Below, piece by piece: positions 2,692 through 61,910 of a stretch of DNA of 64,000 nucleotides. Made by a program: the position numbers and the translations under genes. The stretch covers positions 2,542,001 through 2,606,000 of the forward strand of contig NZ_CP069620.1 of the NCBI RefSeq assembly GCF_026109735.1, written 5' to 3'. Under the pieces are notes generated by a model. The model did no database searches, was not told the DNA's origin, and saw only the letters and a list, made by a program, of their open reading frames with translations. Every line of letters begins with the position of its first letter. Position 1 is the stretch's first letter. The stretch is from Salinimicrobium tongyeongense (GTDB lineage: Bacteria > Bacteroidota > Bacteroidia > Flavobacteriales > Flavobacteriaceae).

Positions 2692-2721
2692 CAGCCTCTA
2701 AAATGTCATTTTTAGAGGCTG
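2692..2721. repeat. Palindrome of the AAAATGNCATTTT family in the mtaB leader
   Basis: Arms CAGCCTCTAAAATG and CATTTTTAGAGGCTG flank a central T (one arm has one extra base). It lies directly after the promoter -7 box, so it would form a hairpin at the very 5' end of the mtaB mRNA. It shares the AAAATGNCATTTT core with many other palindromes in the window. Confidence 0.75.
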
Positions 2722-2775
2722 TTATATTTAACTGAAATTCTGAAGCCTGGCCTTTAGAATCGTGAATGAGAAGAA

Positions 2776-4110
2776 ATGGAAGATCCCAAAAAAGTAGCTT
2801 TTTATACCCTGGGTTGTAAGCTGAATTTTTCTGAAACCTCTACCATTGCCCGATCTTTTAAAGATGAAGGCTTTGTGCGGGTAGATTTTAGCGAAGCAGC
2901 TGATATATATGTGATCAATACCTGTTCGGTTACCGATAATGCCGATAAAAGGTTCAAGACCATTGTAAAGCAGGCCCAAAAAGCCAATGAAAATGCTTTT
3001 GTGATAGCTGTGGGCTGTTATGCGCAGTTAAAACCCGAAGAGCTGGCAGCTGTAGATGGGGTAGACCTGGTGCTTGGTGCAACCGAAAAATTCAAGATCA
3101 CCAATTACCTTAACGACCTCACCAAAAATGACATGGGAGAGGTACATTCCTGTGAAATCGGGGAAGCCGATTTTTATGTAGGCTCTTACTCTTTTGGGGA
3201 CCGCACAAGGGCTTTTTTGAAGGTGCAGGATGGATGTGATTACAAATGTACTTATTGTACTATCCCTCTTGCGCGGGGCATTTCCCGAAGTGACTCTTTG
3301 GAAAACGTGCTTGAAAATGCGAAGAAAATAAGTGAAAAAGGCATTAAGGAGATTGTGCTTACGGGTGTTAATATTGGGGACTACGGAAAAGGTGAGTTCG
3401 GGAACAAAAAACATGAGCACACTTTTCTTGACCTGGTAAAAGGTCTGGATACGGTAGAAGGAATAGAAAGGCTTCGCATTTCTTCAATAGAGCCCAATCT
3501 GCTGAAGAACGAGACTATAGATTTTGTTGCGCAAAGCAAAGCATTTGTGCCTCATTTTCATATTCCGCTTCAAAGCGGCAATAATGAAGTACTTAAGGCA
3601 ATGCGCCGCCGGTACATGAAAGAACTCTACGTAGACCGGGTAGAAAAGATCAAAGAAGTAATGCCCGATGCCTGTATAGGTGTAGATGTAATTGTAGGCT
3701 TTCCGGGAGAAACCGATGAATATTTTATTGATACCTATAATTTCCTGAACGAGCTGGATATTTCTTACCTCCACGTGTTTACTTATTCGGAAAGGGAAAA
3801 TACCCCGGCGGCAGAAATGGAAGCAGTAGTTCCTTTAAAGGTGCGCAAAAAGAGGAGTAAAATGTTGCGTGGCCTCTCTGCTAAAAAAAGACGGGCTTTT
3901 TATGAGACCCAATTAGGCAAGACAAAAACTGTCCTTTTTGAAGGAGAGAACAAAGAAGGCTACATTCACGGCTTTACAGAGAATTACGTAAAGGTGAAAA
4001 CTCCGTGGGATCCTGCACTGGTCAACACCCTGCACCAGGTAGAGCTGCAGAAGATTGGAGAAGATGGAATTGTTCGCTTCTCTTATGTCGAAGAAAAGGC
4101 AGTGGTCTAG
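2776..4110 (+). CDS. mtaB: tRNA (t6A37) methylthiotransferase MtaB
   Basis: A 444-residue radical-SAM methylthiotransferase that converts t6A to ms2t6A at position 37 of tRNAs reading ANN codons. The N-terminal MTTase domain has the three cluster-binding cysteines at 14 (LGCKLN), 50 (NTCSVT) and 81 (VGCYAQ). The radical-SAM CxxxCxxC is at 154-158-161 (GCDYKCTYC), and a TRAM-like C-terminal region covers about 370-440. The GCKLN and NTCSVT style fits MtaB rather than MiaB or RimO. It is preceded by its own promoter and converges with the next gene, overlapping it by 4 bp. Confidence 0.95.
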   Translation: MEDPKKVAFYTLGCKLNFSETSTIARSFKDEGFVRVDFSEAADIYVINTCSVTDNADKRFKTIVKQAQKANENAFVIAVGCYAQLKPEELAAVDGVDLVLGATEKFKITNYLNDLTKNDMGEVHSCEIGEADFYVGSYSFGDRTRAFLKVQDGCDYKCTYCTIPLARGISRSDSLENVLENAKKISEKGIKEIVLTGVNIGDYGKGEFGNKKHEHTFLDLVKGLDTVEGIERLRISSIEPNLLKNETIDFVAQSKAFVPHFHIPLQSGNNEVLKAMRRRYMKELYVDRVEKIKEVMPDACIGVDVIVGFPGETDEYFIDTYNFLNELDISYLHVFTYSERENTPAAEMEAVVPLKVRKKRSKMLRGLSAKKRRAFYETQLGKTKTVLFEGENKEGYIHGFTENYVKVKTPWDPALVNTLHQVELQKIGEDGIVRFSYVEEKAVV

Positions 4111-4406
4111 ATATTGATGCCTACAGGCAGCATGCCTTTGTATTTTCGGCGGTTCTTTCGCATGAATCTCGCAATGGTAGGGCTGGTAGGCATTACTCTT
4201 ATTTCCCGTTCTTTAATGATGTCCAGAACTTTCTCTATAAAAGGTTCCAGATAGCCTTTTTCCTTAAGCTGATCACTCATTTCAAGTTTGGTCAAAAAGA
4301 TCTTGCGGTCCTGGTTTGCGTATTCAATCTTGGCTAATTCTCCTTCAACCTGAAGTTCAAATTGACGAAGAAATTCATTGTCATTAACAGATAGCTGAGG
4401 GTTCAT
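4107..4406 (-). CDS. Small YjdJ/Acetyltransf_CG-like GNAT protein
   Basis: A 99-residue protein. The segment from about residue 13 (RQFELQVEGELAKIEY) to about 92 follows the layout of the small GNAT fold of PF14542 (human NATD1, bacterial YjdJ): FELxVxGxxAxxxY, then KLEMSDQLKEKGYLEPFIEK, then a KERxIRVMPTSP-type strand and a C-terminal helix. The acetyl-CoA loop normally reads RGxG/GKGI; here it is KEKGY, so catalytic activity is uncertain. It converges with mtaB (4-bp overlap). The family call is by pattern only. Confidence 0.6.
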   Translation of the reverse strand: MNPQLSVNDNEFLRQFELQVEGELAKIEYANQDRKIFLTKLEMSDQLKEKGYLEPFIEKVLDIIKEREIRVMPTSPTIARFMRKNRRKYKGMLPVGINI

Positions 4407-10931: not shown

Positions 10932-10950
10932 TCAAAAATGCTATTTTTGA
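10932..10950. repeat. TCAAAAATGNCATTTTTGA-family palindrome after carB
   Basis: Reads TCAAAAATGCTATTTTTGA, one mismatch from a perfect palindrome, 4 bp after the carB stop codon. It may add to transcription termination with the adjoining hairpin. Confidence 0.75.
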
Positions 10951-11006: not shown

Positions 11007-11399
11007 ATGAAAGAATTTATTTTAATATGCGGCGGAGTTTTCGGAACACTGGCAGTGATCTTTGGTGCTTTTGGCGCCCATGGCCTGAAGAAATACCTGG
11101 ATAACGACCAGCTCAAAAGTTTTGAGACCGGTGTCAAATATCAGATGTACCACGCTTTACTGCTCATCCTGGTGGGAGTGATCTTTCCCTTTCAAGGATT
11201 ATCTCAAAACTTCATGGGCTGGTTTCTAGTAATAGGCGTGATATTGTTTTCCTTCAGTATCTACGGGCTTGTGTTGTCTTCGGCAAGGGGGCGAAAAATG
11301 ACATTTTTGGGACCTGTTACTCCACTAGGCGGCCTCCTGCTTGTAATGGGCTGGATCTTGTTTACCGTTAATGTAGCGGGAATTGTGGCCTCGATTTGA
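11007..11399 (+). CDS. DUF423 family small membrane protein
   Basis: A 130-residue membrane protein with four hydrophobic segments (about 3-23, 46-66, 71-89, 101-124). The FGAFGAHGLK motif after the first segment and the GVKYQMYHALLLI segment identify DUF423 (YwdK/YgdD-like). Function is unknown across the family. A copy of the window's palindromic repeat lies inside the gene (about 11293-11309, encoding RKMTFLG). The ATG at 11007 is chosen because it starts the first membrane segment directly; an upstream start would begin in the terminator hairpin. Confidence 0.85.
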   Translation: MKEFILICGGVFGTLAVIFGAFGAHGLKKYLDNDQLKSFETGVKYQMYHALLLILVGVIFPFQGLSQNFMGWFLVIGVILFSFSIYGLVLSSARGRKMTFLGPVTPLGGLLLVMGWILFTVNVAGIVASI

Positions 11400-11528: not shown

Positions 11529-11963
11529 TTATGAATTGAACAATCCGTAAAGTTTCAGAAAATCCTCGTATTCCTGTTGAAATGTCTTTTTTTGATGGTG
11601 TGCTTTTTGGTTCTGGATGTAGAAAGAAGTCTTCTCTAAGACAGATTCAGAAACAGAAAAAGCAGCATACCCGGTTTGCCACGCAAATTTTTGAGGTATA
11701 AGATTGTGATGGTTTATGTAATGTGAACTACTGCCTTTGATTTGCTTGATCACTTCCGAAATAGATTTTTGTGGATTGAGTAAGAACAGGCAATGAATGT
11801 GATCTGGCATGCCGTTTATAATCCGTACTGGGCAACCAGCTTCACGCAATTGCTGATTGATGTGCTGATGAATTTTATCCTCAACTGAAAGCTCAATTAA
11901 AAGACGCCGGTCTTTGGTTGACCAAATGGCATGAACCCATATTTTATTATACGAATGCCCCAT
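11529..11963 (-). CDS. IS200-like Y1 transposase (REP-associated type)
   Basis: A 144-residue HUH-superfamily transposase of PF01797. The HxH metal site is in MPDHIHCLF (His55, His57), and the candidate nucleophile is Tyr115 in KTSFYIQNQKAHHQ. The C-terminal TFQQEYEDFLKLYGL segment is typical of Bacteroidota REP-associated transposases. These enzymes cut and join single-stranded DNA at hairpin-guided sites. The gene is intact, so the element could still be active. It lies between two direct triple-palindrome modules and has no neighbouring TnpB. Confidence 0.88.
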   Translation of the reverse strand: MGHSYNKIWVHAIWSTKDRRLLIELSVEDKIHQHINQQLREAGCPVRIINGMPDHIHCLFLLNPQKSISEVIKQIKGSSSHYINHHNLIPQKFAWQTGYAAFSVSESVLEKTSFYIQNQKAHHQKKTFQQEYEDFLKLYGLFNS

Positions 11964-15133: not shown

Positions 15134-15847
15134 TCAGGTTTTTATTCTGAAGGATTCGGTGGCCCTGTCAAAAACTATAAGGTCTGAAGGAAAGATGCTC
15201 TCAAAATGCCCTTTTTGAATGAGCTGTTGGGGCGTGTCCTGTACTACCCCGTCTGGCTTCATCAATATGATCTTATCGCACAGCTGCAGGGCCAGGTTGA
15301 TCTCATGGGTGGCAAAGATCACCGCTTTTTTTGTGCGCAGGCTCAGATCTTTCAGGAGTTTGAGTACCTGTGCCTTGTGGTACATGTCGAGATGGGAAGT
15401 GGGTTCATCGAGGATCATCAAAGGCGTATTCTGCGCGAGGGCACGTGAAATAAGCACTTTTTGCAACTGTCCGTCGCTTAGCTCGTGGCACTTCTTTTCC
15501 TGTATTTCTTCGATCTTAACCAGGGCCAGGGCATCTTTCACTATTTCTTTGTCGGTAGAGGTGAGGCTTCCAATCCAGTTAGTGTAGGGTTGCCTGCCAA
15601 GAGCTACCAGTTCGGCTACGCCCAGGTTCTTTGACAGGGGCTGTTGGGTGAGCACCAGGCTAATCATGGTTGCCAGCCTTTCCGCAGAAATATTTTTTCT
15701 GTTTTCGCCGTTGAGCTCAATCTGCCCCGAAAGTTCAGGCTGTATCCCGCTTAGGGTTCTCAAAAATGTCGATTTTCCCACGCCATTTATGCCTACCACC
15801 GCCACCAGTTCACCTTCAGAAACCGCAATATCAATTCCTGAAGCCAC
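15134..15847 (-). CDS. btuD: ABC transporter ATPase, BtuD/FecE type
   Basis: The ATPase of a cobalamin- or iron-chelate-type importer. Walker A is GINGVGKST, the signature is LSDGQLQKVLISRALAQ, Walker B is PLMILDEPTSHLD, and the H-loop is ATHEIN. The coordinates start at the first canonical codon (GTG at 15847), but that removes the first beta-strands. The frame stays open upstream and encodes HIILKTENLSIGYRKKQ, which is the normal N-terminus of this family. No ATG, GTG or TTG exists in that extension (open to about 15961). The real start is therefore either non-canonical (ATA at 15928 or ATC near 15907) or reached by frameshifting from btuC, or the sequence has an error. It follows btuC and precedes rmuC. 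Confidence 0.88.
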   Translation of the reverse strand: MASGIDIAVSEGELVAVVGINGVGKSTFLRTLSGIQPELSGQIELNGENRKNISAERLATMISLVLTQQPLSKNLGVAELVALGRQPYTNWIGSLTSTDKEIVKDALALVKIEEIQEKKCHELSDGQLQKVLISRALAQNTPLMILDEPTSHLDMYHKAQVLKLLKDLSLRTKKAVIFATHEINLALQLCDKIILMKPDGVVQDTPQQLIQKGHFESIFPSDLIVFDRATESFRIKT

Positions 15848-18116: not shown

Positions 18117-18190
18117 TGGCACTTCAAAAGTAAGATTATTTAAAATTATTGAAGTAAAAAGCCCTAAAATGTTTATTTTCGCTTTGAATT

Positions 18191-18503
18191 TTGGTTCGAT
18201 TGTTTTCTGAAGAAGTTTCAGAAAGAAAAGACATCGATTAAAAGGGAATCAGGGGAATTTGAAGTTAGAAGTACGAAGTTAGATTTACGAAGTACAGTGA
18301 TTCGAATTCCGAAGCGATTATTAGTGTGAGTTACTTCTAACTTCATACTTCTAAAATCTACCTTCAAACAAGCCTGAGCTGTTCCCGCAACTGTAAGCTT
18401 AGTTCCGATGCGTCGGAATGCCTTTTGTACACTTCATACCACTGTCCTGCCAGCTAATGGGATGGGAAGGTTCACAAAAAGGACGCGAGCCAGGAGACCT
18501 GCC
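18191..18503 (+). promoter_or_regulatory. Cobalamin (AdoCbl) riboswitch with extended stem
   Basis: The 3' end carries the B12 box, GCGAGCCAGGAGACCTGCC at 18485-18503. Upstream are the conserved CTGTTCCCGCAACTGTAAGC core (about 18378-18398), an ACTGTCCTGCCAGC arm and GATGGGAAGGTT. The 5' half has TTGGT (18191) and AAAAGGGAATCAGGGGAA (about 18239-18256). This is an AdoCbl-binding leader that represses the downstream receptor when B12 is plentiful. The 5' boundary is approximate. One stem is lengthened by a repeat insertion at about 18259-18358. Confidence 0.92.
18259..18358. repeat. Imperfect inverted repeat inserted in a riboswitch stem
   Basis: GAAGTTAGAAGTACGAAGTT on the 5' side is complementary, with one or two mismatches, to the ACTTCTAACTTCATACTTCT stretch on the 3' side. 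The GAAGT words recur with a period of about ten bases. The two sides enclose about 55 bases and lie where the conserved riboswitch core normally has a short stem. Confidence 0.7.
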
Positions 18504-18551
18504 ATTTTTCATTAATTAAAAACCTTTGGCTTTCGGGAAAAAAGCCTGCGG

Positions 18552-20390
18552 ATGATGAAAAAAAGCATTCTCTACCTACTATTTTTGAGCCTGTTTCACT
18601 GGACGCCCTCTTTTGCCCAGCTTGACTCTATCAACTATCTCGAAGAGGTTTTTTTGAGCGATGTTAAACTTCGTGAGTTTTCAACCGGCCAAACCCTTAT
18701 TAAAATTGATGATTCCGTCACTAAACTCAGCCGTCCTGCCCTAGGCGAGGTCCTGCAGTTCAATTCGCCCATTTATTTTAAGCAGAACGGGTTGGGTATG
18801 GTCTCTTCGCCCTCTTTCCGCGGAACCACGGCTTCACAAACTGCAGTTTTGTGGAACGGGATCAATATAAATTCGCAGTTCAACGGGCAGACAGATTTCA
18901 ATATAATTAATACGGCAGGGGTCGATGAAGTGGCCCTGCGCGGTGGCGGCGGAAGTGTTATTTACGGGACAGGAGCCATTGGCGGAACGGTTCACCTCAA
19001 CAATAGGCTTAAGTTTAACCAGGGCTTCAAAAATGAGATTTTTTTGCAGTATGGCAGCTATAACAGCCTTGATGCCAGGTACAGTTTAGAGGCCTCGGGC
19101 GAAGTGTGGAGTTTGTCTGTAGCGGGAGCAAGGAACAGCTCAGACAATGATTACGATTACCCCGAAAAAGGGGAGAACCTGAATGGGCAGTTCTACAATA
19201 ACAGCCTTGATGTGGGGCTGGCCTACAAGATCGCCCCTAAAAATTACCTGCGGGCCTTCAGCAGTTTTTCTCATGCAGACAGGCATTTTTCGCTCATTAG
19301 ACCATCTGAGACACCTACAAAATACCGGGATGTGAACAGCAGGAACCTGCTGGAGTGGGAAACAGGGGTTTCCAAATTTAAATCGACTACCAAGATTGCC
19401 TTTTTAGATGAAAGCTACAGGTATTATGAGAATCTGAGTTCTAAGCGCTTTTCTTTTGGAGAGGCTGAAACTTTCATTGCCCGAAATGACCTGGAATATT
19501 TTGGTTTTAAAAACCTTCAGCTAGCTTCGGTACTTTCAAATACCCATACAGCTGGCGAGGGTTCGGGTATTGATGACAACAGCCGGAATATTTTTTCCGC
19601 AGCATTTCTTCTGAAGCATCAGCCAGCACAAGAATTCTCTTATGAAGCGGGGCTTCGGAAGGAACTGACCAATAATTATGAGAGCCCGCTATTATTTTCA
19701 GCAGGAGCAAAGTACAGGTTTTCTTCTTTTTATAGCCTGAAGCTGAATGCCTCCAAAAATTTTAGAATCCCCACCTATAATGACCTTTACTGGAACCCGG
19801 GAGGAAATACCAGTTTAAGACCGGAAACTTCGCTGCAGGCCGAAATTGGCAACAGTTTTAGATGGCAGAATTTAGGCCTTGACCTTACCGCTTATTACAT
19901 AGACATTCAGGATATGATAAGGTGGCTGCCCGAAAGTGGTGGAAACTGGCGGCCTCATAATGAAGATGAGGTGCGGTCTTATGGCCTGGAAGCACTTTTA
20001 GGATGGGAGAAAAAAGTGGGCAGCGGATTGTTAAACCTTAAAGGGATCTATGCCTATACAGCATCTGAAAACCAAAAGACCGGTAAGCAGTTAATTTACG
20101 TTCCTTACCACAAAGCAACGGCCGCTGCGGGTTATACTTATGGCAGGTGGAATTTTGATTACCAGTTCCTTTTTAATGGGGAGGTTTTCACACGTTCAGA
20201 CAATGATCCAAAATACAACCTGAAAGCTTATACAATTTCAAATTTGTCCACTTCTTATGCTTTCGGCCGTGAAGGTTCATACAGGTTAGGGGCGCGGGTG
20301 AGAAACCTTTTCGATGAAGCATACCAAAACGTAGAAGACCGCTGGATGCCCGGCGTTAATTTCAATATTTATTTAAATCTTAATTTTTAA
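18552..20390 (+). CDS. btuB: TonB-dependent outer-membrane cobalamin receptor, BtuB-like
   Basis: A 612-residue receptor with signal peptide (cleavage after PSFAQ, about residue 24). A plug domain covers about 40-150 (LGEVLQFNSPIYFKQNG, SFRGTTASQTAVLWNGI, VIYGTGAIGGTVHL) and a 22-strand-type barrel follows, ending in a typical aromatic terminus (NFNIYLNLNF). It imports its ligand across the outer membrane using TonB energy. The upstream AdoCbl riboswitch makes cobalamin or a corrinoid the likely ligand. There are two adjacent ATG codons (18552 and 18555); either may start translation. The next gene starts three bases after the stop. Confidence 0.92.
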   Translation: MMKKSILYLLFLSLFHWTPSFAQLDSINYLEEVFLSDVKLREFSTGQTLIKIDDSVTKLSRPALGEVLQFNSPIYFKQNGLGMVSSPSFRGTTASQTAVLWNGININSQFNGQTDFNIINTAGVDEVALRGGGGSVIYGTGAIGGTVHLNNRLKFNQGFKNEIFLQYGSYNSLDARYSLEASGEVWSLSVAGARNSSDNDYDYPEKGENLNGQFYNNSLDVGLAYKIAPKNYLRAFSSFSHADRHFSLIRPSETPTKYRDVNSRNLLEWETGVSKFKSTTKIAFLDESYRYYENLSSKRFSFGEAETFIARNDLEYFGFKNLQLASVLSNTHTAGEGSGIDDNSRNIFSAAFLLKHQPAQEFSYEAGLRKELTNNYESPLLFSAGAKYRFSSFYSLKLNASKNFRIPTYNDLYWNPGGNTSLRPETSLQAEIGNSFRWQNLGLDLTAYYIDIQDMIRWLPESGGNWRPHNEDEVRSYGLEALLGWEKKVGSGLLNLKGIYAYTASENQKTGKQLIYVPYHKATAAAGYTYGRWNFDYQFLFNGEVFTRSDNDPKYNLKAYTISNLSTSYAFGREGSYRLGARVRNLFDEAYQNVEDRWMPGVNFNIYLNLNF

Positions 20391-23049: not shown

Positions 23050-24498
23050 TTAAAATTCAACTTTCGAGCTGCCTGGCAGATCAGGATCTTCGGTATACAT
23101 CATTTGGTGAAGTAGGTCGTAACTCCTGCTTTCTCCTAACACCTCAAAAATGCCATTTTTGACGCTCATTTGGGGAATGCGTCCTTCTATGAGGCTTAAC
23201 ACCGCTGCCAGCAAAGGCTCCTGCGGGTCTCCCAGCACTCCCAGGTTTGTAAAATCTTCTTTAATTTCTACATCTGGCGTAAGCCCTTCGGAATAATCGG
23301 TGACATTATTGGCATTCAGGCTTTTGTAAATGAGGGGCTGTACCGCATAAGAATGACCTGTATTAACCCTGTTCCTTCGGAAGTCGGGCGAATCGTAAAG
23401 CGTGGTGGAAGCCTGAAATTTTCCGGTGGTATTTTCCCCCACCTGAATTACTTCAATATAAGGTTTGAGTCCGTGGATCACCAGCTCACTTGCCGAAGCA
23501 GTTCTTAAAGTAGTGATAAAGTAAACCCTGTTAAGCCCAAGGCTGTTAATGGCTGCGCCTGTTCTTATCTGGTCGTCAAAACGGTTGTTCAGGCTCTCGG
23601 GGGCAGTAGTTTCCAGGAAGTTCTGGTAATCTTGGTTCCACTGTTCTTTGCTGAAGATTTCGCCGGTAAACTGGCCGGTGATCATGCTTGCCAGGTCACT
23701 GGCAGTTTCAACCGAGCCGCCGCTATTGTACCGCAGGTCAACAATGAGGTCTTCTATTCCTTCAGCCTGAAAATAGCCGAAAGTATTATTTAAAACATCA
23801 TCAAAACTGCCTGTAAACCCGTTGTACATCAGGTAGCCGGCGGTTCCTTCCGAAGTTTCAAGCGTACTGGCGATATAAACGGGATTGGTAGAATATTCCT
23901 CTTTTTGGAGGCTTATACTTTCACCTGTAGCCACGATTCCGCTTTCAGTAAATTCAGCCAGCTCTATGGTGTAGCTTTGCGGTTGCAGCAGCCGGGAATA
24001 ATTCTCGCGGGTAAGGGCTGTACCGTCTACGCCGCTAAACAGGCCCCCTCTTTTAATGCCCTGCTCTTCGGCTGAAGTATTGGGCAAAACATAACGCACG
24101 TAACCCACTACATTTTGGGAACCCGGAGGATAAGCCACCAGGCCGTACTGCATTCCGTTTGAAATATTGATGCCGTCAAATGACCTTTCCAAAACCCTGT
24201 AGTCCTGCACCAAAAAACTGAAATCATCAAAATCGGCTACCAGGCCTTCGTAAAAAAGTTCTTCCGGAGATGAAAAGCTGCGCAAAAAGGCATTCAGCTC
24301 TTCCTGGGAGGCAAAGCGATCATCGACAAGATTGGGAACATCGGCCTTGTAGAGGTACATGTCGTTCATGGCTTTCCAGATAAAGTTTTTGATCTCGAGT
24401 TCATCTGAAGCCGTAATCACATCATCCCTATCGTCATGGCAGGCACTGGTGAGAATGATTGCAAAAAAAGATAAGAGTAATTTCAGGGTAGATTTCAT
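23050..24498 (-). CDS. S41 family peptidase lipoprotein, copy 2
   Basis: A 482-residue paralogue of the downstream peptidase. The ATG at 24498 gives a lipoprotein signal (LLLSFFAIILTSAC, then HDDRDD). A PDZ-like part is at about 140-190 (LPNTSAEEQGIKRGGLF); the catalytic segments are LIVDLRYNSGGSVETASDL, TLRTASASELVIHGL and QVGENTTGKF. A copy of the window's palindrome lies inside the coding region near the C-terminus (23144-23162, encoding VKNGIFEV). It is divergent from the ECF sigma gene with a 131-bp spacer, so a shared regulatory region is plausible. Confidence 0.9.
   Translation of the reverse strand: MKSTLKLLLSFFAIILTSACHDDRDDVITASDELEIKNFIWKAMNDMYLYKADVPNLVDDRFASQEELNAFLRSFSSPEELFYEGLVADFDDFSFLVQDYRVLERSFDGINISNGMQYGLVAYPPGSQNVVGYVRYVLPNTSAEEQGIKRGGLFSGVDGTALTRENYSRLLQPQSYTIELAEFTESGIVATGESISLQKEEYSTNPVYIASTLETSEGTAGYLMYNGFTGSFDDVLNNTFGYFQAEGIEDLIVDLRYNSGGSVETASDLASMITGQFTGEIFSKEQWNQDYQNFLETTAPESLNNRFDDQIRTGAAINSLGLNRVYFITTLRTASASELVIHGLKPYIEVIQVGENTTGKFQASTTLYDSPDFRRNRVNTGHSYAVQPLIYKSLNANNVTDYSEGLTPDVEIKEDFTNLGVLGDPQEPLLAAVLSLIEGRIPQMSVKNGIFEVLGESRSYDLLHQMMYTEDPDLPGSSKVEF
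23144..23162. repeat. Perfect palindrome core inside the second S41 gene
   Basis: TCAAAAATGCCATTTTTGA, a perfect 9-bp-arm palindrome, lies within coding sequence and encodes KNGIFE on the minus strand. Confidence 0.9.
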
Positions 24499-26671: not shown

Positions 26672-26703
26672 AAAAGAAGAGGTCTCAAAAATGCCATTTT
26701 TGG
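26672..26703. repeat. Left half of a palindrome split by the IS3 element
   Basis: AAAAGAAGAGGTCTCAAAAAT at 26672-26692 is perfectly complementary to the sequence at 28134-28154 on the other side of the insertion. The left flank also contains a complete core, TCAAAAATGCCATTTTTGG. Confidence 0.85.
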
Positions 26704-31707: not shown

Positions 31708-31758
31708 AAAAAGAGGGGTGCCAAAAATGACATTTTTGGCACCCCTCTTTTTTTTAGT
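31708..31758. terminator. Large bidirectional terminator built on the palindrome family
   Basis: A perfect inverted repeat with 19-bp arms (31711-31729 and 31731-31749) around a single A. The inner core is CAAAAATGACATTTTTG. The A tract before it and T tract after it give terminators in both directions, for the SRPBCC gene and the converging carboxypeptidase-regulatory-like gene. Confidence 0.93.
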
Positions 31759-35052: not shown

Positions 35053-35526
35053 TTATTTATGGTGGTAGGGTTCATTTCTAAGAATGCTAAAGGCGCGGTA
35101 GAGCTGCTCTACAAAAAACAACCTCACCATCTGGTGTGAAAATGTCATTTTTGAGAGGGAGATTTTGGCGTCGGCTCGTGCATACACTTCTTCGGAAAAA
35201 CCGTAGGGCCCGCCAATGACAAACATGAGCTGCTTCATGCCGCTGTTCAGCCGCTTCTGAATGTATTCTGAAAAAGCTTCCGAAGTAAATTGTTTTCCGT
35301 TTTCATCAAGCAATACCACTACGTCTGAAGTGGTTACTTTCTCCAGGATTAGTTTGCCTTCCGCAGTTTTTTGCTGGTCTACAGATAGGTTTTTGGTCTT
35401 CTTGAGATCGGGGATGATCTCAAATTCAAACCTGTTGTAATGTCCCAGCCTGTTGACATAGGTGTCGATGAGGTTTTGCAGGGCCTTATCATCGGTTTTT
35501 CCTATAGTCAGCAATTTTATGGTCAT
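35053..35526 (-). CDS. rlmH: 23S rRNA pseudouridine-1915 N3-methyltransferase
   Basis: A 157-residue SPOUT methylase acting on 23S rRNA helix 69. It starts MTIKLLTIGKTDDKALQNL. The SAM knot is MFVIGGPYGFSEEVYARA and MTFSHQMVRLFFVEQLYRAF, and the protein ends in the diagnostic RNEPYHH. The ATG at 35526 matches the family N-terminus; an upstream start at 35586 would run into the nadC promoter region. A TATTTTTG box on the minus strand (35560-35567) lies upstream, overlapping the divergent nadC leader. Confidence 0.95.
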   Translation of the reverse strand: MTIKLLTIGKTDDKALQNLIDTYVNRLGHYNRFEFEIIPDLKKTKNLSVDQQKTAEGKLILEKVTTSDVVVLLDENGKQFTSEAFSEYIQKRLNSGMKQLMFVIGGPYGFSEEVYARADAKISLSKMTFSHQMVRLFFVEQLYRAFSILRNEPYHHK

Positions 35527-37386: not shown

Positions 37387-37950
37387 ATGAAAAAACTGCT
37401 TTTACTATTAGTGGCTGTAGTGGTATCTTCTACAGCGGTGGCGCAAAAAAAGGTGGGCGGGGTTGTACTTCCTGCCACTCAGAATTTCCAGGACCACACG
37501 CTGTACCTTAATGGGGCCGGCGTAAGGGAGAAACTGTGGATAGACCTTTATGCCGCCGGACTTTATCTCGACAAAAAGAACAACAATGCACAGGAGATCC
37601 TCAATGCCGATAAACCCATGGCCATAAGGCTTCACATTGTCTCAAAATTGATCACCAGCGACAAAATGGTAGACGCAGTGACCGAAGGTTTTGAAAACTC
37701 TACCGGTGGCAATACCGCACCCATTCAAAATGAAATAGATAAACTTCTTGGGTTCTTCAGGGAAGATATCCAGAAAAATGACATTTTTGACCTGGTATAC
37801 CTTCCCGGAAAAGGAGTGGTGGCCTACAAGAATGGAAAAGAACGCGGGGTGGTGACAGGAAAAGACTTCAAAAAAGGCCTTTTTGGGATCTGGTTGTCTA
37901 ACCGCCCGGCAGATGACGGACTCAAAGATGACCTCTTAGCCGCAAACTAA
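37387..37950 (+). CDS. Secreted chalcone-isomerase-like protein
   Basis: A 187-residue exported protein (signal MKKLLLLLVAVVVSSTAVAQ). The body follows the bacterial chalcone-isomerase-like family (PF16036): KVGGVVLPATQNFQDHTLYLNGAGVREKL, then WIDLYAAGLYLDKK and a C-terminal KGLFGIWLSNRPADDGLKDDL. Bacterial members bind fatty-acid-like ligands in related folds; isomerase activity on flavonoids is not expected. A copy of the palindrome (37774-37790, encoding KNDIFDL) lies inside the gene. Confidence 0.87.
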   Translation: MKKLLLLLVAVVVSSTAVAQKKVGGVVLPATQNFQDHTLYLNGAGVREKLWIDLYAAGLYLDKKNNNAQEILNADKPMAIRLHIVSKLITSDKMVDAVTEGFENSTGGNTAPIQNEIDKLLGFFREDIQKNDIFDLVYLPGKGVVAYKNGKERGVVTGKDFKKGLFGIWLSNRPADDGLKDDLLAAN

Positions 37951-38059: not shown

Positions 38060-38102
38060 GCAGTAATTCCTTATATTTTTGCCCAAACCAAGAGCCTCAA
38101 AA

Positions 38103-40565
38103 ATGCCTTTTTTCATCAATGTTATTTTGCCCCTGCCGCTGGAGAAACATTTTACTTACAGCGTTTCGCAAGACGAGGCCCAATTTTTGAAGCCGGGCAT
38201 GCGTGTGGCTGTTCCCTTCGGAAAATCAAAGATTTATACCGGGATTGTTTCCGAAGTACATCAAAAAGCCCCTGAAGTTTACGAGGCCAAACCCATAGAA
38301 CAGATCCTGGACAAGACCCCCGTGGTTACTACGGGTCAGCTGAAATTCTGGAGTTGGGTAGCTTCCTATTATATGTGTTCGGAAGGGGAGGTGCTTAGGG
38401 CAGCTTTGCCCGGTCCCTTTCTTTTGGAAAGCGAAACCATAGTACAGCTTGTAAAAGACGCAGAAATTGATGATGATGCCCTAAGCGACGACGAATTTTT
38501 GCTGATGGAAGCCCTGCAAACCAAATCGTCTTTGAAGATCAACGAGATCATGCAGCTGCTAGATAAGAAAACAGTGCTCCCGGTGATTAATTCGCTAGTT
38601 GAAAAGAAGCTGGCGCTGGTGAACCAGGAAATTTACGAGCAGTACAAGCCTAAAGTTGAGCGCTTTGTAAAACTTCATGACAGGTATTTAGAAGAAGCGG
38701 CCATGCATGAGTTGCTCGATGATTTGAGCCGCGCACCCAAACAAAGGGAAGTAATTTTTGCCCTTTTTGGAATCTCGGCAAAATCGGTTAAGGGAAAATC
38801 TTCAGTAAAAGTTTCTGAACTCGCCAAAAAGAGCGGTGCTTCAGCTTCAGTAATAAAATCCCTTATAGATAAAGGGATTCTGGAAGAGCTGAAAATTGAA
38901 ACTTCCCGTTTCAGTTTTGATCTTGAAAACCACCAAAAAAAACTGCAGCTCAACGAATATCAGCAACAGGCTTTACAGGAAATTGAATCTTCTTTTGAAG
39001 CCCAGGATGTATGCTTGCTCCACGGGATCACTTCTTCCGGAAAAACTGAAATTTATGTAAAGCTCATTGAAAAAGCCCTTTCCCGGGGGAAACAGGTTTT
39101 GTATTTGTTGCCAGAGATCGCCCTTACCGCCCAGCTTATTGCGAGGTTGCAAGATTATTTTGGGGAGCAGGTGTTGATCTTCCACAGCAAATATTCTGTG
39201 AATGAAAGGGTGGAGGTGTACAAAAGCGTGTTGCAGAACAAGGAGACGGCGCGGATCGTGATTGGGGTGCGCTCCAGTATTTTTCTCCCGTTTCACGATC
39301 TGGGCTTGATCATCGTAGATGAGGAGCATGAACCTACTTTTAAACAATATGATCCGGCACCGAGGTATCATGCGCGTGACACGGCTGTTGTGCTGGGAAA
39401 ACTTCAGGATGCCAAAGTGCTGCTGGGTTCGGCTACTCCCTCGCTGGAATCTTACTTCAATGCCAGCCATTCCAAGTACGAACTGGTGAACCTGTCGCGG
39501 CGTTACGGGGACGTGCTTTTGCCCGAAATCGAGATTGTAGATATAAAGGAGAAGCATCGCAAAAAACGCATGACCGGACATTTTTCTGACAGGCTGCTCG
39601 AGGAAATTAAAGAAACCCTGAAAAATAAGGAGCAGGTAATCCTTTTTCAAAATAGGCGTGGGTTTAGTCCCATTTTGGAATGCAACACCTGTGGCCATTC
39701 GCCGCAGTGCCCCAATTGCGATGTGAGTTTGACCTATCACAGCCACAGCAACCAGTTGCGTTGTCATTATTGTGGATACCACATGGCGATGCAGCAAAAG
39801 TGTATGGCCTGCGGCAGCCCCGAACTTTCTACAAAAGGCCTGGGCACCGAACAGGTAGAAACCGAACTAAAAGCCCTGTTTCCCGACCATAAGATTGGCC
39901 GGATGGACCTCGATACCACCCGCGGAAAAATGGGATATGAAAAAATTATTACTGCCTTTGAGGAAGAAAAGATCGATATCCTGGTGGGAACACAAATGGT
40001 CACCAAGGGGCTTGATTTTAGAAATGTGCGGCTGGTGGGAATTATGAATGCCGATACTCTTTTGAACTTCCCCGATTTTAGGGCTCATGAGCGCAGTTTC
40101 CAGTTGATGCTGCAGGTGGCAGGCCGGGCAGGAAGGACCCAAAAAAGAGGTTTGGTGCTTATCCAGACATTTAACCCTCATCATCAAATTGTGCAGCAGG
40201 TATCTACCAACAGCTATCACGAGATGTATAAGGAACAACTGGAGGAGCGGCGCAATTACAAATATCCGCCCTTCTACAGGCTTATTAAAATTACGCTGAA
40301 AGGCAGGGATTATTCAAGGGTAAATGAAGGGGCCGACTGGCTGGCGGTTTCTTTGAAAAATACCTTCGGGGAGCACGTTTTAGGGCCTGAATTTCCGCCG
40401 GTGGCCAGAATACGGAACGAGTATTACAAAAATATCCTGGTTAAAATTCCGCAGGGACAGTCTTTATCAAAGACAAAGCAGTTGATTAGCAGGGTTCTGC
40501 AGAGTTTTAAAGCTATAGGAGCTTATAGGGGGGTAAAATCGGTAATAAATGTTGATCCTTATTGA
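38103..40565 (+). CDS. priA: Primosomal protein N', replication restart helicase
   Basis: An 820-residue 3'-5' helicase that reloads the replisome at stalled forks. An N-terminal 3'-DNA-binding domain covers about 1-110. Walker A is GITSSGKTEIY, the DEEHE box is VDEEHEPTFKQY, and eight zinc-binding cysteines sit in two clusters (CNTCGHSPQCPNC, then CHYCGY and CMACG). The chosen ATG at 38103 lies inside a copy of the window's palindromic repeat (CTCAAAAATGCC). A TTG eight codons upstream is the alternative. The gene overlaps the converging LytTR gene by 7 bp. Confidence 0.95.
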   Translation: MPFFINVILPLPLEKHFTYSVSQDEAQFLKPGMRVAVPFGKSKIYTGIVSEVHQKAPEVYEAKPIEQILDKTPVVTTGQLKFWSWVASYYMCSEGEVLRAALPGPFLLESETIVQLVKDAEIDDDALSDDEFLLMEALQTKSSLKINEIMQLLDKKTVLPVINSLVEKKLALVNQEIYEQYKPKVERFVKLHDRYLEEAAMHELLDDLSRAPKQREVIFALFGISAKSVKGKSSVKVSELAKKSGASASVIKSLIDKGILEELKIETSRFSFDLENHQKKLQLNEYQQQALQEIESSFEAQDVCLLHGITSSGKTEIYVKLIEKALSRGKQVLYLLPEIALTAQLIARLQDYFGEQVLIFHSKYSVNERVEVYKSVLQNKETARIVIGVRSSIFLPFHDLGLIIVDEEHEPTFKQYDPAPRYHARDTAVVLGKLQDAKVLLGSATPSLESYFNASHSKYELVNLSRRYGDVLLPEIEIVDIKEKHRKKRMTGHFSDRLLEEIKETLKNKEQVILFQNRRGFSPILECNTCGHSPQCPNCDVSLTYHSHSNQLRCHYCGYHMAMQQKCMACGSPELSTKGLGTEQVETELKALFPDHKIGRMDLDTTRGKMGYEKIITAFEEEKIDILVGTQMVTKGLDFRNVRLVGIMNADTLLNFPDFRAHERSFQLMLQVAGRAGRTQKRGLVLIQTFNPHHQIVQQVSTNSYHEMYKEQLEERRNYKYPPFYRLIKITLKGRDYSRVNEGADWLAVSLKNTFGEHVLGPEFPPVARIRNEYYKNILVKIPQGQSLSKTKQLISRVLQSFKAIGAYRGVKSVINVDPY

Positions 40566-46366: not shown

Positions 46367-46468
46367 CAGGAAAGTTTTCAGGAGTTTCTGAAGGTTTTGG
46401 GTGAAAATAAACCTGCCAGAGGTGTCAAAAATGACATTTTTAAAGTCCTTTTTTGAAAAGTATTTCTG

Positions 46469-48229: not shown

Positions 48230-48264
48230 CAAAGGTGTCAAAAATGGCATTTTTGACACCTTTG
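48230..48264. repeat. Perfect 35-bp palindrome of the interspersed family
   Basis: Arms of 17 bp (CAAAGGTGTCAAAAATG) around a single G, with no mismatches. It lies between two genes on the minus strand. It lacks a long T tract, so it is not an ordinary terminator, although it would form a very stable hairpin. Confidence 0.95.
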
Positions 48265-48705: not shown

Positions 48706-48789
48706 GCTTCTTTATTTGGTTCAACTTGTTCTTTCTAAAAAACTTCTTCAAAATGGCATTTTTGGGTAACAGCCAGCGAAAGCTGTGGG

Positions 48790-49086: not shown

Positions 49087-49140
49087 GTTCTGTAATTTCT
49101 TATTGATCTTCTTCCGAAGCAAACCTGTCAAAAATGACAT

Positions 49141-49476
49141 TTCGTGATAAGATTTTCAGGTTCAGTAAATTTCCATTTCCTTTAAAATTACCTGCTAGAA
49201 TGACCGATTGCAAGAAGTTTAAGAAAGAATTAGGGGAAAATAATATTCAATTAACAGGACAGCAGTTTCTTGTGTGTAATTGCTTATTTATTTGAAATTA
49301 AAGCAGTTAAATAAAACGTAAAACAGGTATAAAAGAGGGATTCCTTTTCTAGCTTAGCTTCTTTTGTCCAGGTTTTGTAACTTAATTTGGCTGCCAGGCG
49401 CAGAAGTCATTTTAGTGCTGAATGATATCTTGAAATAAAGTTTAAAAAGGGCACTTTTCAGGAAAAAACCATATTT
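49141..49476. other. Intergenic region without recognised gene
   Basis: About 330 bases, AT-rich, between a minus-strand small gene and the AI-2E-family gene. I see no ORF with coding character, no RNA gene and no clear terminator. A TTAATTTGG sequence near 49382-49390 is a one-mismatch -7-like box, so the region probably holds the promoter for the downstream transporter with a leader of about 85 nt. Confidence 0.5.
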
Positions 49477-53525: not shown

Positions 53526-53882
53526 TTAAAGAAAAACATGGAAAGGAAAAATGACCTTTTTGACACCTAAACCCGGAAATATATAGCGGGAGCGCTTAAT
53601 ATAGCTTAGGGAGGTGAACGTGTGGTTGTGAATGCGGGCATTAAAATCTTCTGCAAGACCAGCGCCGGCAATTACAAAGACCGGGTTTTTATGGTATGGC
53701 AGAATAGACTCAAACAGATTGCCTGCCTGTTCTTCAAAAGAGTCTTCTAAAACTTCCTGCGGAAGGGGTTTTTCCTGCGGAATAAGACCTGTTGTATTTT
53801 CAGAAAAAAGGCTGCTGCTACTGCTTAAAAGCAGCAGGAGCAGGAAAATCCTGTGGTTTAGAAGAAACAGGCATTTGATCAT
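53526..53882 (-). CDS. Small exported protein of unknown function
   Basis: A 118-residue protein with a long hydrophobic, Leu/Ser-rich N-terminus (FLLNHRIFLLLLLLSSSSSL) that is either a signal peptide or an anchor. An acidic part follows (LEDSFEEQAGNLFESILPYHKNP), then VFVIAGAGLAEDFNARIHNH. The C-terminal residues are encoded by a degenerate palindrome copy (about 53545-53566). A start four codons upstream (53894) is also possible. I do not recognise the family. Confidence 0.5.
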   Translation of the reverse strand: MIKCLFLLNHRIFLLLLLLSSSSSLFSENTTGLIPQEKPLPQEVLEDSFEEQAGNLFESILPYHKNPVFVIAGAGLAEDFNARIHNHTFTSLSYIKRSRYIFPGLGVKKVIFPFHVFL

Positions 53883-54144: not shown

Positions 54145-54828
54145 ATGTTTGGAATAGCTGATATCCCAAAATTCTTCCTGGCATTCTTTCTGGTCCTGCC
54201 GCTTATTTCCATTCTGCACGAAGGGGGACATGTATTTTTTGCCTGGCTTTTGGGTGCGAAAAAGATTCAGGTCACTATTGGAACAGGGAAGCCGGTGTTG
54301 AAGTGGGGAATGATCGAGATACGCAAATACTATTTCTGGTACGGCCTGTGCACATACGAGAATTTGAGGATCAACAGGAGGTGGAGCAATGTTGTCATTT
54401 TTGGTGGGGGCAGCTTTTTTAACCTTATAGGGGTGCTCACCGTAATGATCCTGGTAGAGCAGGAGATGATAGGGACTAATATGTTCACCTACCAATTCAC
54501 CTACTTCTCGTTTTATTTCATATTTTTTGCCCTGCTACCCATGACCTACCCGGGCGGAAATTACAGCGACGGAAAAATTATCCTAAACCTTTTAAAGGAC
54601 AAAGAATTCGCGGTTTTTCAAAGAACTTTTTGGGTGCAGTGGGATGAGGAAAAAAGGCAGTGGCAGGTGCTTGATCACGACCAGAAAATGATACAGGCTT
54701 TTGAAAGGGAAGATGAAGCTTCAGAAAAAGCAAGAGGTATTGCCAAAGACCAGCGGCCCAGCCGGGTGGTGAGTTTTAAAAATGGGGAAGAAAAGGAGAT
54801 TCAGAATTACCCCAGAATCCCCCTCTAA
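54145..54828 (+). CDS. M50-like (site-2-protease-type) membrane metalloprotease
   Basis: A 227-residue protein. The zinc motif HExxH appears as HEGGH in the first membrane segment (LISILHEGGHVFFAWLLGAK, about 21-40). A second motif, NYSDGKIILNLL (about 139-150), sits where the third zinc ligand (NxxPDG/DG) lies in the family. There are about four membrane segments and a charged cytoplasmic tail (about 160-227). It may cleave membrane-bound substrates or have lost activity. A palindrome-like TCTAAAATGCTATTTTA spans its stop codon and the converging USP gene end. Confidence 0.78.
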   Translation: MFGIADIPKFFLAFFLVLPLISILHEGGHVFFAWLLGAKKIQVTIGTGKPVLKWGMIEIRKYYFWYGLCTYENLRINRRWSNVVIFGGGSFFNLIGVLTVMILVEQEMIGTNMFTYQFTYFSFYFIFFALLPMTYPGGNYSDGKIILNLLKDKEFAVFQRTFWVQWDEEKRQWQVLDHDQKMIQAFEREDEASEKARGIAKDQRPSRVVSFKNGEEKEIQNYPRIPL

Positions 54829-54832
54829 AATG

Positions 54833-55693
54833 CTATTTTACAACCCATAGCGGTACCCCGTAATTCTCGTTAAAAAGTTCTTCGGTCACACTTCCTACCG
54901 AAAAAGGGGAAAAAGTGTTGCCTCCCTTATCGGAAACTACAAGTAAGTCTGCGTCAGACTTTTTGATGTTGGCGATGATCTTTTGCGCGGCGCCAGATTG
55001 CCTTCCGAGGAAAAACAAGGGTTCTATCTGGTTTGGATAATCAAGTTTCCTGATGAACTTCTCGAGCTTTTCTTTTACGTGTTTTTCTACTTTTGGCGCC
55101 ATAGATTCGGGGGAAACATAAGGTGAAAATTGCACGGGCACACTGTAGATATGCACCAGTTTAAGCCGGGAAGAATTTTCCTTTTGTAAGATTTTGGTAA
55201 CGTTGAAGATCTTCCGGGAATCGGGTGAAAAATCGGTTCCGGCCCAAATGGTTTCAATTTGGGGTTTTGCTACCCGCGGCACTGCCAGGATATCACACCT
55301 TAGCAGCCTCAGTAATTTTCCGCTTACCAGCCCGGTACCGTTCTCGTGCTTTTTGTTCCCAACAATGGTTAGTTGAATAGCGTATTTATCAACCACATAT
55401 TTAATTAGGGATTCGCTGTAGGGATCTTCAGAAATTAGTACTTCAAATTCGGCTTCAGCTTTAAAATGTTCTTCTACTTTTTCGTTGAGTTCGTCGCCTA
55501 TCAGCTTATCAAGATTGATGTCCTTCAACTGTTCCTCAAAAAGTTCAGAAATCTCATACTTCTTGATATTATGCACAAAATAGACCTTTTCAGCCTTTAA
55601 TCGCGTGGCCATAAAGGAAGCGTATTTAATAAGCACTTCATCGAGGTCTGAAAGATCAAGCGCAACGAGTATATTCTTGTAATTCTTAGTCAT
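54833..55693 (-). CDS. Tandem-domain universal stress protein
   Basis: A 286-residue cytoplasmic protein with two USP domains. Domain 1 (about 1-137) starts NYKNILVALDLSDLDEVLIK and ends with the LTIVGNKKHENGTGLVSGKL loop. Domain 2 (about 145-286) starts ETIWAGTDFSPDSRKIFN and ends LLVVSDKGGNTFSPFSVGSV. The GxxxxGxxxxS/T nucleotide loop is only partly conserved, so ATP binding is uncertain. It follows the BCCT gene by 17 bp on the same strand and may regulate that transporter. Confidence 0.9.
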   Translation of the reverse strand: MTKNYKNILVALDLSDLDEVLIKYASFMATRLKAEKVYFVHNIKKYEISELFEEQLKDINLDKLIGDELNEKVEEHFKAEAEFEVLISEDPYSESLIKYVVDKYAIQLTIVGNKKHENGTGLVSGKLLRLLRCDILAVPRVAKPQIETIWAGTDFSPDSRKIFNVTKILQKENSSRLKLVHIYSVPVQFSPYVSPESMAPKVEKHVKEKLEKFIRKLDYPNQIEPLFFLGRQSGAAQKIIANIKKSDADLLVVSDKGGNTFSPFSVGSVTEELFNENYGVPLWVVK

Positions 55694-58500: not shown

Positions 58501-58704
58501 AAAATTCTTTTGTTCCTGTAATTTAAAACCAATCCTATAGAAAACAGTGTTATAGCCTATAAAATTCTGTTAAGACGTAGATAATGCCAAGAGATTTGCT
58601 GGTGAAATTTAATTTAAGTCAGCCGGAACAGAGTTGATTATGAGCAGGAGCTACTGGAACTATAGATCCTGCTGCCCTCTCAAAAATAGCATTTTAAGCA
58701 CTTA

Positions 58705-59314: not shown

Positions 59315-59340
59315 CTCCTGAAAATGGCATTTTTGAGAGG
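59315..59340. repeat. Interspersed palindrome copy upstream of the alanine symporter
   Basis: CTCCTGAAAATGGCATTTTTGAGAGG: core with one mismatch, CTC/GAG outer pairs. It lies between the tRNA-Arg gene and the symporter promoter. Confidence 0.8.
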
Positions 59341-59389
59341 TGAAAGTCCCTGATAACTAAAGAAATGATGGGCATCGAAGTTCCCGGAC

Positions 59390-59419: not shown

Positions 59420-59423
59420 CTTT

Positions 59424-60818: not shown

Positions 60819-61851
60819 TCACCCGGCGCTCATCATGACTTTGCTGGGCAGCCTCTATAACCCTAATTACGTCTCGTGCCTGTTGAGGTGTTACTGCGGG
60901 GCTTTCGCCGCGGGTAAGCACGTTGTATAGGTTCTGGTACAAGAACGGGTAATTTCCGCGTTCACTTTCCACGAGCCTTTCTTCATTTATGGTATTAAGC
61001 CTGCCCCAGATTTCTTTCGGTTCCATACCCCAGTTAGGGGTGTCTTTTGGGCTTATGCCATTTTTCAGAAATTCTTCCTGCGGGTCGGCACCGTATTTTA
61101 CAAAACTGCCGCGGGTGCCAAAAACCTGGTAAGTCGGCCCTTTTTCTTTGACCAGCGTGCCTGCTTTTAAAGTGACCTTTAGCTGAGGGTAGAAGAGGAG
61201 GAGTTCAAAGGCATCGGGTACTGTTGCGCCGTCCCGTTGGGTTCTTATATCGGCAAAGATCTCCTGCGGAAGTCCGAAAAGGTTGAGTGCCTGGTCTATG
61301 AGGTGGCTGCCCAGGTCGTAGAGTATTCCGCTGCCGGGATTTTCTTTCTGTTCTTTCCAGCCGCTTTTCACCTGGTTCCTGAAACGGTCAAAATGGGCTT
61401 CATATTCTACCACCCTGCCTAAAAGGCCATTTTCAACAACTTTTTTTAGACTTAGATAATCGCTGTCCCAGCGCCGGTTGTGGTGAACGCTGAGCAGCAG
61501 GTTTTTTTCATGCGCCAGCTTAATGAGTTCATTGGCTTCCCGCACGTGGGGCGTAAAAGGCTTCTCTGTTAACACATTTTTTCCTGCCTTTAAGGCCTTT
61601 TCAGCAAAATCGAAGTGAAGGTGGTTGGGAAGTACCAAAATAACAAGCTCAATTTCGGGATCTTCAAGGATCTTTGAATAGTTGCTTACAATTTCAGCCT
61701 TCGGAAAGTCCTTTTTTGCGGCTTCAATATTCTTAGGGCTTGAGGTGAGTATCTTTTTGACTGTAAAGCCTTCTACGCTCTTAAGTATGGGGGCGTTATA
61801 GATGCTTCCGCCCGAACCGTATCCTGCAAAGGCAGTAATTACCTGCTTCAT
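60805..61851 (-). CDS. Gfo/Idh/MocA family oxidoreductase
   Basis: A 348-residue NAD(P)-dependent enzyme. The Rossmann fold starts VITAFAGYGSGGSIYN, slightly unusual because GxGxxG reads GYGSGGS. The EKP motif is NVLTEKPFTPHVREAN with the catalytic-type Lys, and the C-terminal domain has GSGILYDLGSHLIDQALNLFG, where the His is the proton-donor candidate. Members oxidise or reduce sugars and sugar acids. The substrate is unknown. Confidence 0.92.
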   Translation of the reverse strand: MKQVITAFAGYGSGGSIYNAPILKSVEGFTVKKILTSSPKNIEAAKKDFPKAEIVSNYSKILEDPEIELVILVLPNHLHFDFAEKALKAGKNVLTEKPFTPHVREANELIKLAHEKNLLLSVHHNRRWDSDYLSLKKVVENGLLGRVVEYEAHFDRFRNQVKSGWKEQKENPGSGILYDLGSHLIDQALNLFGLPQEIFADIRTQRDGATVPDAFELLLFYPQLKVTLKAGTLVKEKGPTYQVFGTRGSFVKYGADPQEEFLKNGISPKDTPNWGMEPKEIWGRLNTINEERLVESERGNYPFLYQNLYNVLTRGESPAVTPQQARDVIRVIEAAQQSHDERRVITFG

Positions 61852-61890
61852 TTTTGCTTCAAGGTAAATATTTCTGAAGAATAAATGAGC

Positions 61891-61910
61891 TTGAAAATGC
61901 CATTTTTGAC
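61891..61910. repeat. Interspersed palindrome copy between oxidoreductase and regulator genes
   Basis: TTGAAAATGCCATTTTTGAC, a core with one mismatch, lies in the 68-bp spacer between two minus-strand genes. Confidence 0.8.

Follow-up and report, generated by a model that had tools for sequence, protein, structure and literature searches.

A genus-bound 17-bp palindrome in genes and spacers of Salinimicrobium, a possible DNA-uptake or self-recognition tag

Introduction

Why does one short palindrome recur, inside genes as well as between them, along a 64-kb stretch of a Salinimicrobium (Flavobacteriaceae) chromosome? The stretch, referred to below as the window, comprises bases 2,542,001-2,606,000 of a genome that forms one contig of 3,509,958 bases (3.51 Mb). 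An earlier note on the window had listed 19 positions of the palindrome and had proposed a mobile repeat similar to the repetitive extragenic palindromic (REP) elements, a nucleoid-protein site or a termination signal. We counted the palindrome in the window, in the whole genome and in related genomes, studied how its copies are gained, lost and conserved, and weighed these proposals against two others, a mutational bias and a tag by which the cell recognises DNA of its own kind. We tentatively prefer the last of these.

Results

Abundance of the palindrome

The core of the palindrome is CAAAAATGNCATTTTTG (17 letters). Unless stated otherwise, a copy is a match with at most two mismatches, and exact counts are those of the 15-mer AAAAATGNCATTTTT. 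In the window we detected 17 copies compared to 0.10 expected, a number reached in none of 100 shuffles. Genome-wide there are 683 copies, or about one per 5 kb, compared to 8 for the reversed control. For closer analysis we used a sample of 464 kb, consisting of the window and 20 evenly spaced stretches of 20 kb each. It contains 97 copies (19, 34 and 44 with zero, one and two mismatches, respectively; reversed control: 0, 0 and 1), and four other palindromes of like composition gave 0, 1, 4 and 2 copies. The abundance in the window and in the genome is far beyond chance, as the earlier note had expected for the window. All 19 listed positions have the core within 9 bp, 15 of them at two mismatches or fewer, three at three and one at four. 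Two window copies with two mismatches, at 19028 and 37869, had been left off that list.

The sites are spread slightly evenly (46 bins of 10 kb, mean 2.09, variance 1.69), and no trend towards origin or terminus was evident by eye in the 21 sampled stretches. The GC skew changes its sign between 1.36 and 1.54 Mb and again between 3.16 and 3.34 Mb. A 159-kb desert (G000:C1:550,843-709,705) holds no exact 15-mer at all; in two sampled 20-kb parts of it (L153 and L222, GC 0.414 and 0.374) the palindrome is missing even at two mismatches, and a second over-represented word, described below, has 0 and 1 copies. We rejected an origin- or terminus-linked site, given that no trend was visible by eye in the sampled stretches and the desert lies at neither skew switch.

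Gain, loss and conservation of copies

We aligned all distinct sites with at most one mismatch (250, of which 102 are coding) to the other sequence collected for the analysis. For the coding sites there were 94 usable alignments, 91 of them gapless. The site was present in 54, all gapless, and lacking in 40, of which 37 were gapless; these 40 stem from 16 query sites, some of which are mutually orthologous. At the site that starts at 37773 the relatives display intermediate states with one to five mismatches. Coding copies are gained and lost by substitution.

This bears directly on the proposal of a REP-like or MITE-like repeat (MITE: miniature inverted-repeat transposable element) spread by a transposase. 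As a general explanation it is refuted for the coding copies, whose presence and absence are gapless and which make up 51 of the 97 sampled copies. For the intergenic copies insertion is possible, since 18 of the 19 alignments in which the site is absent contain gaps. Copy number is also uneven between species, as a mobile repeat would have it, and 9 of the 12 Salinimicrobium genomes have Y1 transposase matches, including a REP-type match within the window at 11529-11963 (-). The number of these matches does not follow the number of copies: the genome G010 has 108 exact sites and no Y1_Tnp match. Furthermore, a clear consensus ends about 22 bp from the centre of the site. Of all readings considered here we regard a transposase-spread repeat as the least probable.

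We then compared conservation like for like, at syntenic loci in 12 genomes. In spacers, where 14 of 18 sites could be aligned (35 pairs), the core identity between species was 0.887; in genes, with 11 of 11 sites aligned (87 pairs), it was 0.827. The pairs share ancestry and are not independent. The flanks reached only 0.703 in spacers and 0.705 in genes, and random positions at the same loci gave 0.752/0.752 and 0.767/0.760. A wider comparison, with sites and controls drawn from different pools, had the same outcome. As core identity lies above that of the flanks and the flanks lie below the random controls, the core is maintained amid permissive surroundings that change somewhat faster. Copies in genes and spacers alike, gain by substitution or recombination, and conservation are what characterises uptake sequences, and all of this was found for the palindrome. 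A site kept for a DNA-binding protein would fit the conservation data equally well.

Gene context

Gene context was taken from a simple coding-score gene caller, which called 90% of the sequence as coding. As the earlier note had observed in the window, the palindrome occurs both in genes and in spacers: 51 of the 97 sampled copies are coding and 46 intergenic, the spacer being tandem for 24 of the latter, convergent for 15 and divergent for 7. Convergent spacers had the highest density (1.89 per kb), followed by tandem (1.01) and divergent ones (0.47) and by coding sequence (0.12). Coding copies occur across all deciles of the gene, and in a set of 59 of them 36 lie in one reading frame, 19 in the second and 4 in the third.

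The peak in convergent spacers is what one would expect of intrinsic terminators with a common hairpin top, and some copies, such as the one at 31722, do have a full stem followed by a U-tract. In addition, the left and right arm types of intergenic copies are correlated (GG-GG 10 and CC-CC 12, i.e. 22 alike, vs 6 unlike). An intrinsic terminator consists of a G+C stem and then a U-tract 3' of a gene, and only a minority of copies conforms to this. A stem of at least 12 is formed by 11 of the 46 intergenic copies, 6 of them with a U-tract, and by 9 of the 51 coding copies (one mispair allowed, G-T counted as a pair), one with a U-tract. The note's termination signal holds for a minority of copies, and more than half are coding and lie over all deciles; confinement to ordinary terminators was checked for and not seen. 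Coding copies and the scarcity of full stems largely refute terminators as a general or sole explanation, and a terminator family is very improbable, only slightly less so than the transposase-spread repeat. Since about half the copies are coding, and since these turn over by substitution and have outer arms that pair no more than expected, we conclude that neither a terminator family nor an inserted repeat accounts for most of the palindrome's copies.

Anatomy of the site

Pooling the sites reveals a symmetric pattern of about 40 bp: an A-tract from -16 to -20, a purine, two G/C at -13/-12 and a T at -11 lead up to the core, and the same order is mirrored on its other side. Past about 22 bp from the centre no clear consensus was found in the pooled sites. 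The flank preference is similar in 59 coding and 62 intergenic copies. Half of the single-mismatch copies (17 of 34) deviate only at an outermost C or G.

The earlier note had described outer arms that vary in sequence and stay complementary. Within the window this is true of the copies at 31722 and 48239, whose arms pair out to 23 positions from the centre with at most two mispairs, and of no other window copy. In the 59 coding copies the outer arms pair at the level expected for independent columns (arm types: 15 alike, 10 unlike), although 9 of the 51 in the sample reach the stem of 12. The pairing in coding copies thus speaks against terminators as well.

A symmetric site with A-tracts, present in coding copies too, is what a lineage-specific dimeric DNA-binding protein would leave behind, either a nucleoid organiser or a very broad regulator whose sites are kept by selection on chromosome structure. 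In agreement with this the whole palindrome is the unit: the half-site CAAAAATG has 106 copies outside masked sites (z 1.9), at most a weak enrichment, and we discarded the half-site as a unit on this basis. The slightly even spacing fits such a protein as well. Several observations do not. Divergent spacers, where promoters lie, are the least dense of the intergenic classes (0.47 compared to 1.89 per kb in convergent ones), and the sampled stretches display no origin or terminus trend by eye. A Chi-like site was dropped, by reasoning only, on account of the palindromic form.

A mutational or repair bias without function, as in the highly iterated palindromes (HIPs), was considered next. The gain of copies by substitution would suit it, and some shorter palindromes within the site are still enriched over controls after masking of all sites with up to three mismatches (AATGNCATT 24 vs 4 and 8; ATGNCAT 123 vs 24-69). 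A precedent exists in the cyanobacterial HIP1, for which a repair-bias model has been proposed and which, according to the passages cited, may be a scattered by-product of methylation and repair (PMC4390886). A repair ratchet would hardly be expected to build a core of 17 bp with flanks out to 40 bp; enrichment of the innermost TGNCA is slight (1785 vs 780-1591), and AAAATGNCATTTT has no copy outside the masked sites. Such a bias also leaves the preference for convergent spacers and the loading of the cassette arrays described below unexplained. We consider it improbable, if less so than terminators.

Distribution across genomes

Across the 12 genomes of the genus the exact counts are 246 (own genome), 14, 4, 60, 296, 108, 49, 93, 104, 0, 108 and 113, with controls of 0-1. 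The low values belong to G001 (14), G002 (4) and G009 (0). With two mismatches allowed, the counts (controls in brackets) are 325 (3) in G007, 112 (4) in G001, 43 (5) in G002 and 2 (2) in G009; five other genera gave 6-15 (4-23). In a sample of 299 family genomes the 296 outside the genus have 0-4 exact matches each, as has the control. A scan of one genome per species returned at least 119 stretches with a match, and among the 80 matches listed 39 are from Salinimicrobium and the rest are scattered. Among viral contigs 21 stretches had a match, one site each. The palindrome is a Salinimicrobium feature among the genomes searched. In 100 kb each of three genomes from sister genera (G163, G059 and G041) no replacement 'dialect' palindrome was evident, and we dropped this idea; a fourth sample, G050, was left out for a masked stretch.

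A tree built from 17 proteins of the window and including 11 outgroups, based on one 20-kb region and with outgroup rows covering 596-1090 of 5244 positions, has the topology (G009,(G002,(G001,(G007,(the other eight))))). Read against this tree, the copy counts show the palindrome to be missing from the deepest branch, infrequent in the two that follow and plentiful in all others. Strong genome-wide over-representation and restriction to a lineage are traits of uptake sequences, and a scattered, over-represented palindrome is typical of HIPs; the palindrome displays all of these traits. A range from 0 to 296 exact sites within one genus is awkward for a nucleoid organiser or broad regulator.

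Competence genes

All 10 genus genomes with at least 14 exact copies have a full-length, open ComEC (PF03772). In G002, a genome 99% complete, comEC is a relic, lying in pieces between conserved neighbours (L268, G002:C11:28001-38000), and in G009, 74% complete, the only ComEC match falls below the cut-off. DprA is missing only in G009; its open frame in G002 has 281 amino acids compared to 339-393 in the others. Hence ComEC and DprA both occur in all ten species with at least 14 exact copies, though ComEC is nearly universal in the family: of 43 family genomes from other genera, 41 have it and 2 do not. As those 41 keep it, a loss of comEC is unusual.

Cassette arrays

In G001, two contigs of low GC content (L210 and L211) are made up of small genes that stand almost all on the same strand and alternate with imperfect palindromic repeats resembling attC; each contig also has an IS110-family transposase. 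Array DNA of G001 holds 27 palindrome copies in 23 kb, compared to 112 in the whole G001 genome, and in L210 we placed 15 of 17 copies by eye within the attC-like repeats. Over eight stretches of array from six species, with limits set by hand, we counted 45 copies in 55.8 kb. The copy-poor G002 has some copies in array-type DNA as well (L221, L266). On the question of depletion in recent DNA the evidence is divided: the desert, if it is recent, has no exact copies, and the mobile-type cassette arrays are rich in the palindrome. Loaded arrays would be expected of an uptake tag if mobile DNA gains by carrying it; a nucleoid or regulator protein does not by itself account for them.

As an observation in its own right, arrays with attC-like repeats were seen in L210, L211, L263, L265, L264, L260 and L221, and contigs often end there. 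A tyrosine recombinase frame of 378-469 amino acids, close to the arrays in some genomes, is found near contig ends in G001, G002, G010 and G011 and about 8 kb away in G003. A classical integron integrase was rejected: TIGR02249 stays below its cut-off in 12 of 12 genus genomes and matches likewise in 14 of 14 control genomes. For this reason we call the arrays integron-like, a label resting on their layout and on attC-like repeats judged by eye. The own genome has the same recombinase frame, but its surroundings, 40 kb in all, showed neither an attC-like word nor an array. A literature search that combined integron terms with Salinimicrobium gave nothing on this genus among the matches listed.

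A second over-represented word

Unbiased word counts in the own genome identified a second over-represented word, the non-palindromic 11-mer TTTCTTCGGAA. Counting exact matches on both strands, there are 341 in the own genome, 90-300 in ten further Salinimicrobium species and 3 in G009. In other genera we counted 331 (G049), 245 (G022), 167 (G037) and 122 (G041), and 0-51 in the other 74 genomes searched. Allowing one mismatch and requiring the same orientation, the word lies at +10 to +50 of 113 palindrome centres 22 times compared to 3.4 expected (0 of 500 random placements), based on 554 kb of which 90 kb had been fetched for reasons other than even sampling. On the other side, from -60 to -10, there were 10 compared to 4.4 expected. 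The word is found beside the palindrome six times above expectation. Three letter strings of the word matched 282 papers in a literature search, and the 15 among the matches listed seemed unrelated, judging by their titles.

Copies in the window

Exact copies of the core lie at 23145..23161 (coding), 26686..26702 and 31722..31738 (both in convergent spacers) and 48239..48255 (intergenic, with long arms). The first is shared with G004 and gaplessly absent in G005 and G008, and the alignment with G010 is gapped. The third has long arms and a T-run, i.e. the shape of a terminator; G004 keeps its core on another stem and also retains the core of the fourth. One mismatch was found at 10933..10949, an intergenic copy that adjoins a gene end and aligns without gaps in G004, G008 and G011; at 11293..11309, a coding copy with gapless variants in 6 relatives; at 37773..37789, the coding copy with the intermediates mentioned above; and at 46426..46442, in a convergent spacer and shared with G004.

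Copies with two mismatches are intergenic at 2698..2714, 48748..48764, 59319..59335 (divergent) and 61892..61908, and coding at 19028..19044 and 37869..37885 (the two absent from the earlier list) and at 35137..35153, which has gapless alignments in 11 relatives. Downstream of this last copy lies the second motif, TTCTTCGGAA, at 35188..35197 (+). Two more copies of this class lie at a called gene start (38098..38114) and close to a called gene 3' end (53546..53562). The weak copies have three mismatches at 15201..15217 (coding), 49129..49145 and 58681..58697, and four at 54825..54841.

Two other features of the window were recorded. A cobalamin riboswitch (RF00174, 80.5 bits) is located at 18175-18520 (+). 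At 43191-43260 a spacer sequence of about 70 bp has several matches in G003 and G006, and synteny breaks there at the same point.

Discussion

What the palindrome does

Scatter, gain by substitution, conservation, restriction to a lineage, density in convergent spacers, occasional use as terminators and loading of arrays are, taken together, fitted best by uptake sequences among the classes that we considered. The open comEC of the copy-rich genomes and the second word beside the palindrome would also be in line with this. We therefore lean, at somewhat less than even confidence, towards the palindrome being a tag for DNA uptake or self-recognition, acting much as a DNA uptake sequence does; competence, a reader protein and spread driven by uptake are inferred. 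In this mechanism a protein of the competence machinery would prefer DNA that carries the 40-bp site, made up of an A-tract, AGGT or ACCT, CAAAAATGNCATTTTTG, AGGT or ACCT, and a T-tract. As the site is symmetric, this protein would probably be a dimer. Favoured uptake and recombination of tagged DNA would let sites build up by substitution wherever the sequence can accept them: in spacers, at the ends of genes, where some might then become terminators, and at tolerant codons.

The nucleoid-protein site of the earlier note stays a serious rival. A palindrome suggests a dimer and would suit a nucleoid or regulator protein equally well, which is why neither reading is held with confidence; we judge the protein site to be a real possibility, about one in three in our estimation. 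The uptake tag in its most specific form, with a symmetric 40-bp site, a dimeric receptor, cassettes carrying extra copies for uptake and capture by relatives, and TTTCTTCGGAA forming part of a composite signal, is rather unlikely. To our knowledge no signal of this kind occurs in any other organism, including any other member of the Bacteroidota.

Work on other bacteria touches the uptake tag on both sides. The neisserial uptake sequences lie in more divergent regions, are absent from recently acquired genes and double as terminators, as set out in the passages cited (PMC2397512). In Riemerella columbina, of the same family, natural transformation with a preference for own DNA was measured; the cited part of that study counted words of up to about 10 bases and leaves the signal open (PMC7965970).

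Several points weigh against the uptake tag. The link with comEC is confounded with phylogeny, since G002 and G009 are the two deepest branches, and one of the two losses is seen in the 74% complete genome. G002, with its dead comEC, still has 43 copies (4 exact) compared to 5 in the control, and G001, with an intact ComEC, has only 112. In G002 the second word has not decayed, and the two G001 arrays, where the palindrome is densest, hold next to none of it (1 in 25 kb). Known uptake sequences are 9-12 bp long and non-palindromic. For Neisseria it has been argued that many uptake sequences arise by recombination, being too unlike their homologues for point mutation (cited passages of PMC2397512); the Salinimicrobium palindrome, unlike this, shows stepwise intermediates. 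Lastly, Flavobacterium johnsoniae was non-competent under the same conditions as Riemerella, according to the cited part of that report (PMC7965970).

If the uptake tag is correct, it would suggest that self-marking of genomes evolved independently in the Bacteroidota with a palindromic grammar, its origin would be traceable within one genus, and natural transformation would be linked to the traffic of integron cassettes. Self-preferring transformation has been measured in a family for which the signal is not known, and the palindrome is a concrete candidate sequence. If it is a protein site instead, one would look for an abundant and so far undescribed DNA-binding protein peculiar to this genus.

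Comparison with known systems

The earlier note had not recognised the palindrome as a described element, and we found nothing to the contrary: six versions of the motif letters were unmatched in a full-text literature search, outside of which most subscription papers lie, and the element is undescribed among the matches listed for uptake sequences and for interspersed or palindromic repeats in the Flavobacteriaceae or Bacteroidota. What would set it apart from other interspersed genome tags is its unusual, palindromic grammar.

HIP1 (GCGATCGC) of the cyanobacteria is likewise a scattered palindrome, over-represented genome-wide and of unsettled function. It differs in being 8 bp long and tied to DNA methyltransferases, according to the cited passages (PMC4390886), whereas the Salinimicrobium site is longer and restricted to one genus. 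REP elements and their REP-associated tyrosine transposases (RAYTs) share with our case the interspersed palindromes and, in 9 of 12 genomes, a Y1 transposase match; they differ in that the genic copies in Salinimicrobium turn over by substitution and the transposase count does not track them. The sites of SlmA, Noc and MatP are palindromic and both coding and intergenic. They number tens per genome with a terminus-related distribution, compared to about 680 sites in Salinimicrobium with no evident trend in the sampled stretches.

Closest are the DNA uptake sequences (DUS) of the Neisseriaceae and the uptake signal sequences (USS) of the Pasteurellaceae. These are asymmetric words of 9-12 bp, whereas the Salinimicrobium site has a 17-bp palindromic core and a symmetry of 40 bp, is found in a host of the Bacteroidota together with a second over-represented word, and is known from sequence alone. 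What the Salinimicrobium palindrome has in common with them are hundreds of copies scattered over genes and spacers, restriction to a lineage, the use of some copies as terminators, a location in more divergent regions and many one-off copies.

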